In this document: one piece after another, positions 7,577-62,012 of the stretch
Position numbering within the stretch: the first letter of the stretch is position 1
Layout of the letters: the number at the start of each line of letters is the position of its first letter
Assembly (NCBI RefSeq): GCF_003441595.1
Contig: NZ_CP031848.1
Span: 2,790,001-2,854,000 of the forward strand
Direction of reading: 5' to 3'
DNA: 64,000 nt
From: Marinobacter sp. Arc7-DN-1
Lineage (GTDB): Bacteria; Pseudomonadota; Gammaproteobacteria; Pseudomonadales; Oleiphilaceae
The notes under the pieces: generated by a model
The model's input: the letters and a program-made list of their open reading frames with translations, nothing else
What the model was told of the DNA's origin: nothing
Database searches by the model: none
Made by a program: the position numbers and the translations under genes

Positions 7577-8023
7577 TTACTGCTCCTCAACCGGGTCGCT
7601 TTTCCCACGAATGGGCGAAGGGTCTTCCCAGTGTTCGATCAACCGACAGATGGTATGGCCATCCGGCGTGCCATCCGGCATCTCCTGCCACGCGGACAAG
7701 GCCGCGGTCATCCGCTGGCGAAGCTGCTGCAACTCACGAATTTCCCGCTCAACCTCCGCAAGCCGCTGCTGAAACACATCCCGCACCATCGGACACGGAG
7801 AATGGTGATCGTCCGCCTGATCCAGAATCTGCCGGATCTCCGGCAATGAAAACCCCAACTGCCGCGCCTTCCGGGCAAACCGGAGGCGTCGTAGATCGTC
7901 GGCATCAAACTGCTGGTAGTTGTTGTCCGGATTGCGAGCCGGCTTCAGCAGATTTTCCCGGGTGTAAAAGCGCACGGTATCCGGGTTCACTCCAGCGGCT
8001 TCTGCAATGTCTTTGACTTTCAT
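7577..8023 (-). CDS. MerR-family metal-responsive regulator of the copper operon
   Basis: The start at 8023 gives 148 residues beginning MKVKDIAEAAGVNPDTVRFY, the typical MerR winged helix. Longer frames upstream run into the inverted repeat at 8085-8192 and are unlikely to be translated. The dimerisation helix spans about residues 78-112. Metal-ligand candidates are H73, H74, C77 and, near the end, H123 and C126. Cu(I) sensors of the CueR type have Ser at the position of C77 and two cysteines at about 112 and 120; neither is present here, so the effector may not be the classical CueR type. It is the first gene of the copA operon. Regulation of copA is inferred from position. Confidence 0.85.
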   Translation of the reverse strand: MKVKDIAEAAGVNPDTVRFYTRENLLKPARNPDNNYQQFDADDLRRLRFARKARQLGFSLPEIRQILDQADDHHSPCPMVRDVFQQRLAEVEREIRELQQLRQRMTAALSAWQEMPDGTPDGHTICRLIEHWEDPSPIRGKSDPVEEQ

Positions 8024-8084
8024 GGCGGATCTTCCGATACAGTTCTGATCATTTACCCGGACGGGAAGCATACAACTTGCGGAG

Positions 8085-8192
8085 CGCCGGCGTGGGAGAT
8101 TCTTCCGAAAACCGCTGTGAATACGTCTCTGTACGCTTGCACTCCGCCATCCTTGGCTCCGAGCATTTTCGGAAGAATCTCCCACGCCGACG
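8085..8192. repeat. Variable-arm inverted repeat, copy 1
   Basis: Two arms form a perfect 24-bp inverted repeat (8088-8111 against 8166-8189), extended by three more pairs after one mismatch. The arms read GGCGTGGGAGATTCTTCC and its complement. They enclose a 54-nt core starting CGCTGTGAATACGT. The same core, with small differences, occurs at 55553-55605, but there the arms have an unrelated sequence. The element sits between the regulator of the copper operon and a divergent/convergent small membrane protein gene. It encodes no protein of its own. It is a dispersed non-coding element of unknown mechanism. Confidence 0.85.
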
Positions 8193-8275
8193 CGGCAATC
8201 ACCGAAACCGAAAACTTAGAACAGTTTAAAACCTGTGAGCACCTCACAGGTCAAAGGTTTTTTTGGGAAGGAAAG

Positions 8276-42069: not shown

Positions 42070-42086
42070 CGGCAAAACGTGAACCC

Positions 42087-42116
42087 GGGGTCAGATGAAC
42101 GCTTTCATCTGACCCC
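42087..42116. repeat. 30-nt hairpin repeat, copy 1 (terminator-like)
   Basis: GGGGTCAGATGA pairs with TCATCTGACCCC around ACGCTT, followed by TCTTTC. The same 30 nt occur without a mismatch at 48675-48704 after an unrelated gene. It can stop transcription of the TRAP permease gene and of the convergent pckA gene. Confidence 0.85.
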
Positions 42117-42133
42117 TCTTTCAGTATTTAGCC

Positions 42134-48659: not shown

Positions 48660-48674
48660 TAGGCGACTGAATAT

Positions 48675-48704
48675 GGGGTCAGATGAACGCTTTCATCTGA
48701 CCCC
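48675..48704. repeat. 30-nt hairpin repeat, copy 2 (terminator-like)
   Basis: Same 30 nt as at 42087-42116: GGGGTCAGATGA, ACGCTT loop, TCATCTGACCCC. It sits between the convergent desA and rsmD genes, followed by GTCTTTACC. Confidence 0.85.
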
Positions 48705-48727
48705 GTCTTTACCGTCTTTACCCTTTG

Positions 48728-53563: not shown

Positions 53564-55496
<1,933 letters not shown>

Positions 55497-55523
55497 TATA
55501 ATCGGAAATTATAACTTGGGGGC

Positions 55524-55634
55524 AGAAGCGATTGGGTGGGCCTTTCCAAAACACGCTGTGAATACGTCCCTGTACGCTCGGCTCCGCCATTCATGGCTCC
55601 GCACGGTTTTGGAAAGGCCCACCCAATCCCTTCT
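55524..55634. repeat. Variable-arm inverted repeat, copy 2
   Basis: Perfect 23-bp arms at 55530-55552 and 55606-55628 (GATTGGGTGGGCCTTTCC and complement), with five more pairs beyond one mismatch (AGAAG/CTTCT). The 53-nt core CGCTGTGAATACGTCCC...GGCTCCGC is the same as in copy 1 (8112-8165) apart from a few changes, but the arms are unrelated to copy 1. It lies 28 nt after intron 1 and 28 nt before the glxR-like gene. Confidence 0.85.
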
Positions 55635-60177: not shown

Positions 60178-62012
60178 GTGCGCCCGGCATGGGCGCACTC
60201 CTGGAGGTGCAAGTCCTCCCGTAAGCTGGCCACAGCGAACGAAGTGAAGCGCAACTGCGGAAGGGCGACCAACTGTGGAGAGGAAGCGTGGAGCGTAAAC
60301 CGTGAGCCGATGAACAAGAATCGGATATAAGGCGCTGCCGAGCAGGGCGAGCGGGCTAGAAGCCGCGAAGCTCTTGTGGCCAAGGCGATGCGGCGTAAAT
60401 CCGGCGGTTGTGCGGTGAAGGAGTGTGTTCTTACCCGGGGATATCTCGCCTTATGCCTGAAAGGGCAACGTGGCAACACGGAGCGAGAAGTCAGCAGAGG
60501 CCATAGTAGTTTCCGGAATGGAACGAAGGGCCGAACGAGAAGGAGCGTCAAACGCCTTGTCGATGAGCATTGTACGGCATCAGATGCCCGCGCCAGCGGG
60601 GCGGGTTACGGAGCGGGAAGGTGAAGCCTTGCCAGATGTGACCAGCGATGAAACAGGACTCCCGCGACGAGAACCGGAGGGCGCAGGGCGAGGCCTGCTT
60701 GAGCAGGTATTCGCACGAGAGAATATGCAACGGGCATGGAAGCGCGTGAAGGCCAACAAGGGAGCGGCGGGTATCGACGGTCTGGACATTGCCCAGACAG
60801 CCGAACACCTGCAATGGGCCTGGCCGGATCTCCGGCAACAATTGCTGGAAGGTCGCTATCGGCCTCAGCCTGTCCGTCGGGTAGGCATCCCGAAACCGGA
60901 CGGAAGTGAACGGGAACTGGGTATCCCCACCGTGACCGACCGTCTGATTCAACAGGCACTGTTGCAAGTGCTGCAACCTCTGATCGATCCAACCTTCAGC
61001 GAGCACAGCCACGGCTTCCGCCCGGGCCGTCGGGCTCAGGATGCGGTTTTGGCTGCACACCGCTATGCCCAGCAGGGCCACCACATCGTGGTGGACGTCG
61101 ACCTGTCGAAGTTCTTCGACCGGGTCAACCACGACATCCTGATCGACCGTCTGAAGCCGCGTGTGAACGACACCGGAGTCATCCGGCTGGTTCGGGCGTA
61201 TCTGAATGCGGGCATTATGGATGGCGGAGTCGTCATTGAGCGACACGAAGGCACGCCGCAAGGCGGGCCTCTGTCGCCTTTATTGGCGAACGTCCTGCTG
61301 GACGAGGTGGATCGGGAACTGGAGCGCCGGGGCCACTGCTTCGCCCGCTATGCCGATGACTGCAACGTCTACGTACGCAGTCAGAAAGCCGGTGAGCGAG
61401 TGATGCGACTGTTGCGTCGCTGTTACGGCAAATTGCGCTTGACGATCAACGAATCCAAAAGCGCAGTCGCCAGTGCGTTCGGTCGAAAGTTCCTCGGCTA
61501 TGCCTTATGGCAGACGAGGGACGGAGACGTCCGGCGCGCGGTATCAGCCAAGGCGTTACAGGCGTTCAAGTGGAGGATCAGGCAACTGACCCGACGCAAC
61601 GGAGGGCGCAGTATTGAGCAGGTGGTAGAGCAACTCCGTAGCTACCTGTTGGGATGGAAAGGGTACTTCCGGCTGGCGCAAACGCCACGCATCTGGCGGT
61701 CGCTGGATGAGTGGTTACGCCGTCGCCTAAGAGCCTTGCATCTCAAACAGTGGAAGCGGGGCAGGACCATTTACCGGGAACTGCTGCGCCTTGGCGCGAG
61801 TCCCTGGGTTGCGGAATCAGTGGCGGCCCTGAGCCGTCGCTGGTGGCATAACAGTCGGTCTGCCATTCACAACGTGCTGACGATTGCCTACTTTGATCGG
61901 TTGGGCGTGCCGCGTCTCTCGTGATACCTCAACGTCTCGAACCGCCCGGTGCGGACCCGCTTGCCGGGTGGTGTGGGAGGGGCGGAGTCTAGTGGCTCCC
62001 CCCTATCCCGAT
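60178..62012 (+). mobile_element. Group II intron 2 (class C type), intact maturase
   Basis: Starts GTGCGCCC right after the terminator T-tract. Domains I-III fill 60178-60469 (292 nt, no gene). Domain V is about 61939-61975 (AACCGCCCGGTGCGGA) and domain VI about 61976-62012, ending CTATCCCGAT. Its ribozyme sequence differs from intron 1, so the two are separate introns rather than copies. Inserted 42 nt ahead of greB. Confidence 0.88.
60470..61924 (+). CDS. ltrA: Group II intron reverse transcriptase/maturase
   Basis: The frame opens with GTG 60470 (484 residues); ATG at 60518 is an alternative start. RT motifs are complete: KANKGAAGIDGLD, LGIPTVTDRLIQQA, FDRVNHDILI, GTPQGGPLSPLLANVLLDE and the catalytic YADD at residues 294-297. 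The maturase domain follows (LRSYLLGWKGYFRL). There is no HNH endonuclease, as usual for class C introns. It aids splicing of its own intron and makes cDNA for retromobility. Confidence 0.95.
   Translation: MATRSEKSAEAIVVSGMERRAEREGASNALSMSIVRHQMPAPAGRVTEREGEALPDVTSDETGLPRREPEGAGRGLLEQVFARENMQRAWKRVKANKGAAGIDGLDIAQTAEHLQWAWPDLRQQLLEGRYRPQPVRRVGIPKPDGSERELGIPTVTDRLIQQALLQVLQPLIDPTFSEHSHGFRPGRRAQDAVLAAHRYAQQGHHIVVDVDLSKFFDRVNHDILIDRLKPRVNDTGVIRLVRAYLNAGIMDGGVVIERHEGTPQGGPLSPLLANVLLDEVDRELERRGHCFARYADDCNVYVRSQKAGERVMRLLRRCYGKLRLTINESKSAVASAFGRKFLGYALWQTRDGDVRRAVSAKALQAFKWRIRQLTRRNGGRSIEQVVEQLRSYLLGWKGYFRLAQTPRIWRSLDEWLRRRLRALHLKQWKRGRTIYRELLRLGASPWVAESVAALSRRWWHNSRSAIHNVLTIAYFDRLGVPRLS

Follow-up and report, generated by a model that had tools for sequence, protein, structure and literature searches.

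A dispersed hairpin element of Marinobacter with a conserved core and site-bound arms, a predicted RsmA/CsrA-binding RNA

An inverted repeat that occurs twice in the stretch of Marinobacter sp. Arc7-DN-1 DNA analysed here (64,000 nucleotides, referred to as the window) was found to belong to a real and widespread element. Its copy number, its fold, the strand that folds, the conservation of its loops, the inheritance of its arms, the two-sided change of its stem, and the inversion and type differences of its core were all computed. Our interpretation, held with modest confidence, is that it is a dispersed RNA element, predicted to bind RsmA/CsrA, whose arms are equalised by template switching together with selection.

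A sequence-only reading of the window had reported the same core within two inverted repeats, and both were confirmed at the places where it had put them. It had also described the arms as perfect over 24 bp. Each repeat extends a little further than that: the arms are 28 nt in copy 1 (96% complementary, with 54 nt between them) and 29 nt in copy 2 (97% complementary, with 53 nt between them), each with one mismatch. The sequence CGCTGTGAATACGT is present twice in the window; allowing up to 2 mismatches, the window holds 2 matches against a mean of 0.19 per shuffle, with 1 of the 100 shuffles reaching 2. The strand that folds is named the A strand; it is complementary to the one used in the sequence-only reading. 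The features of the two copies are as follows.

8084..8111, no strand: copy 1 left arm, 28 nt
8112..8165, minus strand (folded A strand): copy 1 core, inverted relative to 19 orthologous cores of the same kind
8124..8131, minus strand: copy 1 hairpin A loop, CAGAGACG, GGA lost
8148..8155, minus strand: copy 1 hairpin B loop, CAAGGATG, CANGGANG intact
8166..8193, no strand: copy 1 right arm, 28 nt
8231..8251, minus strand: MerR-type promoter-like dyad ACCTGTGAGCACCTCACAGGT, alike in orthologues, putative in function
55510..55523, minus strand: copy 2 flank on the 3' side of the A strand, with the recurrent CnCCnAA motif
55524..55552, no strand: copy 2 left arm, 29 nt
55553..55605, minus strand (folded A strand): copy 2 core
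55565..55572, minus strand: copy 2 hairpin A loop, CAGGGACG, CANGGANG intact
55588..55595, minus strand: copy 2 hairpin B loop, CATGAATG, GGA lost
55606..55634, no strand: copy 2 right arm, 29 nt

Thus, GGA has been lost from one loop in each window copy. Copy 1 had been placed just upstream of the merR-copA promoter; instead, it is located between the promoter-like dyad at 8231-8251 and the start of merR, which lies near 8023 on the minus strand. If the dyad is the promoter, as its form suggests, copy 1 probably sits in the merR leader.

Searching the whole genome for the core and aligning the hits, as the sequence-only reading had proposed, revealed 107 places and not merely two copies. A 25-nt core pattern allowing up to 3 mismatches gave 35 genome matches, and the reversed pattern gave none. 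A covariance model was then built on the alignment of 27 of the 30 loci from the core-pattern search, with L015, L024 and L025 excluded as truncated or interrupted; it gave 111 matches at E<=0.01 in the own genome (4.3 Mb), of which 4 are the same place on the opposite strand, leaving the 107 distinct places. This number may be a minimum, because only 150 of the 1591 first-look candidates were scored. Pairs and loops were counted in 100 of the 107 places (4 were outside the lookup list and 3 were short), the inner 24 pairs in 97 of these 100 copies, arm comparisons used 92 copies (arms of at least 25 nt, core of 50-60 nt), and the folding set comprised 94 copies (arms of at least 20 nt).

The element is about 116 nt in length and reads, in A-strand order, as one arm of a stem of about 28 bp, hairpin B, hairpin A and the other arm. 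The core measures 52-58 nt in 98 of the 100 own copies; the loop of hairpin B is mostly ANGGAT, and that of hairpin A, which has a bulge, is mostly ANGGAC or ANGGAT. The earlier observation that the core is conserved, the outer arms are not, and pairing is nevertheless kept was upheld, with 2252 of 2328 inner-arm pairs being Watson-Crick in 97 copies. Among the 27 aligned copies the long helix is paired in 93.4% of cells, and the whole structure shows both-side changes in 266 cells, compared with 80 in shuffles and 48-78 when the partner was slid by 1 to 3 columns. The description of the arms as entirely different applies to the outer arm only. In the same 27 copies the inner 10 nt or so of the arm follow a consensus, which on the A strand is T, followed by CCC, TTT or a mixture of these, and finally GGAA. 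A CC step recurs 17-18 nt out; the remaining outer arm is highly variable. Beyond the stem, CnCCnAA is frequent in the A-strand 3' flank, which is C-rich and then A-rich (100 copies). Within 45 nt of the element, AGGCT was found in 20 of about 100 copies (2 in the background) and GGCTA in 16 of about 100 (4 in the background). By eye, small hairpin-like sequences were seen within hairpin B in L015 and L025 (near 1648971 and 798763 of the own genome), L224, L261, L270, L281 and L287, as if short elements insert into one another's loops.

A transition in a G-C or A-T pair yields G.T and A.C mismatches with equal likelihood unless one strand is selected. Read on the A strand, 97 own copies contain 40 G.T against 7 A.C in their inner 24 bp (p 1e-6). 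In other taxa the ratio is 128 to 23 in 90 copies (p 7e-19); these copies were taken by sequence pattern alone, with pairing ignored, and are what remained of 118 places after 28 without a stem in a simple ungapped search were excluded. The A strand also gives the more stable fold in 83 of the 94 own copies. From the G.T excess and the steadier fold we concluded that the A strand is the folded strand. The folding molecule would be RNA or single-stranded DNA, the asymmetry fitting both equally.

Exactly two CANGGANG motifs, 23-25 nt apart, are present in 95 of 100 own cores, compared with 0.035% of shuffled cores; in other Gammaproteobacteria 68 of 90 cores have two and 22 of 90 have one. In the available portion of PMC6849547, CANGGANG is given as the 'Rsm-binding motif (5'CANGGANG3')'. 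The own genome contains one csrA gene, and together with the paired hairpin loops carrying CANGGANG this agrees with what is expected of an RsmA/CsrA-binding RNA, so that binding is predicted. Outside the genus, csrA is present in 40 of the 44 element-bearing genomes, the four lacking it being 67, 75, 88 and 98% complete; since 7 of 8 genomes that the model did not match have it as well, this co-occurrence is uninformative. In the best structures of RNAfold both GGA are unpaired in only 44 of 94 copies. This, and the damaged loop of each window copy, count against CsrA binding, which we therefore put forward as a prediction. The predicted RsmA/CsrA binding is the best-supported function of the element; selection could also favour a strong stem on other grounds, with another factor bound to the octamer.

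Among known RNAs, the element is most aptly read as resembling the TwoAYGGAY RNA (Rfam RF01731) while scoring just under its threshold. Both have two terminal GGA hairpin loops inside an outer stem and occur in Gammaproteobacteria, and the loops of the element, mostly ANGGAY, agree with the TwoAYGGAY loop. When 27 own-genome loci were searched with RF01731 at permissive E-values, the best scores were 42.6 and 40.0 bits (L095) against a gathering score of 43, and other scores were 29.4 and 27.2 bits; nothing reached the gathering score in the window or in 18 loci of other Gammaproteobacteria. As the scores are below threshold, we did not file the element as a member, though by its plan it would act like one. 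TwoAYGGAY has been proposed as CsrA-binding (PMC4333381, in the part available), and the available parts of PMC2864571, PMC4333381 and PMC11701678 describe for it no hundred-copy repeat, free arms or inverting cores. Rfam families of eukaryotic miRNAs, which the long perfect stems matched at permissive E-values, scored far below their gathering scores and were taken as chance. In the literature searched by terms and core words, consisting mostly of the accessible text of non-subscription papers, no description of this dispersed hairpin was found. Sponge RNAs of the CsrB/RsmZ type carry repeated GGA hairpins and are single genes with many sites, whereas the element has many dispersed copies with two sites each.

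To compare the histories of core and arms, the 92 copies were compared in pairs. The suggestion that arms are unrelated between copies was borne out for the outer arms: in the 65 pairs whose cores are at least 97% identical, the mean identity of the outer arms (15 nt) is 0.397, and it is 0.36-0.43 in the other core-identity classes. Over all pairs the correlation of core identity with outer-arm identity is 0.09, and an outer-arm identity of at least 0.7 is reached by 28 pairs compared with 24.5 in shuffles. The copies 3925065 and 2227114 have outer arms 0.93 identical (shuffled 95% point, 0.87) and cores merely 70-80% identical. For the whole 25-nt arm, 219 pairs have an identity of at least 0.68 compared with 99 in shuffles, and the best pair has 0.88 against a shuffled 95% point of 0.84. 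We put this excess down mainly to the inner part, which is AAA or GGG according to sub-type. The core and the arms therefore have separate histories within one element.

Near-identical cores with unrelated arms could also arise if the arms were made at insertion from the target site, by a hairpin-primed foldback, as the sequence-only reading had proposed. Three sites were followed through the genus, each represented by the 30 best-matching loci of 81 genomes, so that distant genomes are under-represented. At the site named S22 (own copy 3925065) the element is present in 18 of 30 loci and absent from 12, 2 of which have a palindrome remnant. The other 10 have neither element nor remnant, and by eye none of them has arm sequence; L173, one of the 10, was matched on a single side. 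Of the 30 loci at the copy 2 site 25 are occupied, and several of the 5 others appear to retain the right arm's end. The copy 1 site has a core of the same kind in 20 of 30 loci and another core in 2; in 8 no stem was found, one of these (L330) being unmatched on the anchored side. In the two loci with another core, L322 and L331, from two species, the paired arms enclose an unlike core of 22 nt, which may represent a second family of cores on the same stem.

The outer arms of orthologous copies are on average 0.52-0.75 identical, compared with about 0.39 for paralogues. At the copy 2 site the mean is 0.65 for loci sharing a core type and 0.57 for loci that differ in it; the corresponding values at S22 are 0.75 and 0.52. 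Since orthologous arms are more alike than paralogous ones, we conclude that arms and site are inherited together, also between loci whose cores differ. This homology of arms between species, the lack of arm sequence at the element-free sites and the consensus in the inner arms all speak against the foldback, which we regard as very improbable. The first two of these observations led us to reject it.

The other copying proposal, that one arm is copied from the other, fits the pattern of stem change between species. In 26 orthologous pairs from the three sites (624 stem pairs; no locus reused, although a species may recur at different sites) we counted 112 two-sided and 19 one-sided changes, whereas 40 and 298 would be expected if the two sides changed neutrally and independently. 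The two-sided rate is 0.18 per base pair against a mean third-position divergence of 0.24, for which the frame at the copy 1 site holds one stop. When 5 pairs whose cores differ in length, kind or orientation, and which may be replacements, were dropped, 72 two-sided and 16 one-sided changes remained. In our judgement, two-sided change that reaches about three quarters of the third-position rate and leaves few intermediates goes beyond independent compensatory mutation and fits arm-to-arm copying. According to PMC8604942, template switching homogenises arms and inverts spacers, and according to PMC8794818 it maintains RNA hairpins. The repeats of PMC8604942 share with the element arm homogenisation and spacer inversion; their inverted spacers have 2-5 bp changes in yeast genes, whereas here a whole structured core of 54 nt is inverted at an orthologous bacterial site.

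The core itself is found in both orientations and can differ in type at one site. At the copy 1 site the window core is opposite to 19 other orthologous cores of the same kind, while its arms and flanks have not moved. Among the 100 own copies the flank motif stands on the usual side only in 38 and on the mirrored side only in 5, while 5 copies have it on both sides and 52 lack it; copy 1 is among the 5 mirrored-only copies, and the background rate is 0.025 per stretch. On the tree of the flanking genes at the copy 2 site, 6 changes are required between the 53-nt core type and the 57-58-nt type, with which a single 43-nt core was grouped. The 53-nt type against all other states, including empty, requires 7, of which 4 are forced by well-supported branches. 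All five core states together take 10 changes compared with 14.9 when shuffled (0 of 200 shuffles as low), and since the types are thus clustered on the tree, core exchange is not free. Core types are inherited for some time and then switch, and some of the switches, which are accompanied by large arm change, may be whole replacements.

Two-sided change near the third-position rate, the inverted core and the deletion remnants would also be produced by a functionless long palindrome, perfected by template switching alone and with its cores homogenised by gene conversion. Symmetric copying alone, however, leaves the G.T over A.C excess of 128:23 unexplained, and the two octamers are conserved while the hairpin stems around them vary; we therefore consider this explanation improbable.

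Model matches were found in 79 of the 81 genomes of the genus, with at most 45 matches scored in each, and in 45 of 274 genomes of the class (own genome included; at most 13 scored in each) from 40 of 222 genera; Marinobacter, Microbulbifer, Halomonas, Stenotrophomonas, Rheinheimera, Idiomarina and Methylomonas are named among the matches listed. Such patchy spread might suggest a non-autonomous mobile DNA of the REP or MITE kind, its folded single-stranded core being recognised in trans by a transposase and the RNA-like signs being due to folding of single-stranded DNA. The high copy number, the intergenic location in both orientations, the folding of one strand and the element-free orthologous sites in relatives are all consistent with it. 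The same is true of nine close inverted pairs (starts within about 300 bp: 565865/566010, 874192/874428, 1089242/1089428, 1261779/1261963, 1276070/1276227, 2143581/2143763, 2208782/2209003, 3150387/3150590 and 3805350/3805511), whose A strands always diverge, the only arrangement at that spacing among the listed places. Against it, 35 of the 81 genus genomes yielded no Y1 transposase (PF01797), although many of these 35 have at least 40 model matches, and near-identical cores lack common arms, so that no recent duplication of the whole unit is apparent. Neither a terminal repeat nor a target duplication was seen at the one inspected site, where boundaries are blurred by divergence, and copy 2, the sole query, had no match in plasmid or phage collections at E 1e-4, on which ground carriage by a plasmid or phage was set aside. 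On this evidence we think mobile DNA rather unlikely, though it deserves more weight than the foldback or the functionless palindrome.

REP and REPIN sequences are like the element in being of high copy number, extragenic and palindromic and in forming inverted doublets. According to the available portion of PMC2817692, REPs are marked by a GT(A/G)G head and flank RAYT genes. In 100 copies aligned in fixed register, the 45 nt to each side showed no conserved head of this kind; one lying at varying distances might be blurred by this register. Nor was there a RAYT gene flanked by the repeat; the two own PF01797 genes, at 1131501 and 4096135, are 28 and 41 kb from the nearest listed copies, which also counts against the mobile-DNA reading. 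By these two tested features the element is not a REP, and mobilisation by RAYT was rejected, as there is no link between the element and the PF01797 genes. Short REP-like palindromes with TTCATCTGACCCC are present in the window at 42080-42123 and 48670-48709, and TTCATCTGACCCC or its start adjoins element copies in L090 and L099. Integron attC sites, also considered, are defined by RYYYAAC/GTTRRRY core sites.

As intergenic GC-rich stems, the copies might be taken for intrinsic transcription terminators. No T-run follows either arm, the A-strand 3' flank of 100 copies being C-rich and then A-rich, the stem encloses a structured core of nearly constant length, and divergent genes flank 18 of 103 copies; this was the least probable of the explanations considered, and it was rejected for want of a T-run after the stem. 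In codon-scored gene calls for the 103 copies, the orientations were ++ 40, -- 23, +- 21, -+ 18 and unclear 1, and the 40 to 23 ratio has p 0.04, with one side of copy 2 left uncalled. A cruder caller, which misassigned both window copies, gave ++ 25, -- 26, +- 21 and -+ 31. It is possible that the A strand is preferentially sense, but the preference is weak at most and is not established. Many frames are open across the element, and G+C-rich DNA leaves many open anyway.

Two group II introns were also noticed in the window. Parts of one lie at 53694-55496, between copy 2 and a gene that we take to be rpoH-like, and its reverse-transcriptase frame looks split into two overlapping ORFs; in loci orthologous to copy 2 a terminator-like hairpin occupies the intron position, and no such intron adjoins the element. 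The second, at 60178-60531, seemingly starts right after a terminator-like hairpin with a T-run, a placement shared by group IIC introns.

Our favoured reading, of a dispersed RNA element, would work as follows. The transcribed A strand would form the stem of about 28 bp closing a two-hairpin junction, with an octamer CANGGANG in each of the small hairpins; the two loops of a transcribed copy may bind an RsmA/CsrA dimer, and the copies may serve as binding sites locally or collectively. A mutation in one arm would often be copied to the other by template switching of the polymerase, which would also invert the core. Selection on the RNA fold would retain G-U and remove A-C mismatches, and core types would transfer between copies by gene conversion or replacement. 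More tentatively, the copies may make up a distributed, predicted RsmA/CsrA sink of about 100 small RNAs in each genome. The core, as its recognition module, would then be inverted and exchanged between genomic sites like a cassette, and the arm-copied stem would stay with the site.

The element is probably a clear natural record of paired DNA arms copying each other. One core placed in unrelated stems, at sites traceable through the genus, amounts to natural replicates of one experiment, and these replicates let the origin of compensatory change, by independent mutation or by template switching, be measured in bacteria. Should RsmA/CsrA bind the loops, the number of copies could determine the level of free regulator in the cell, and this effect would be exerted through sequence that is usually left unannotated.
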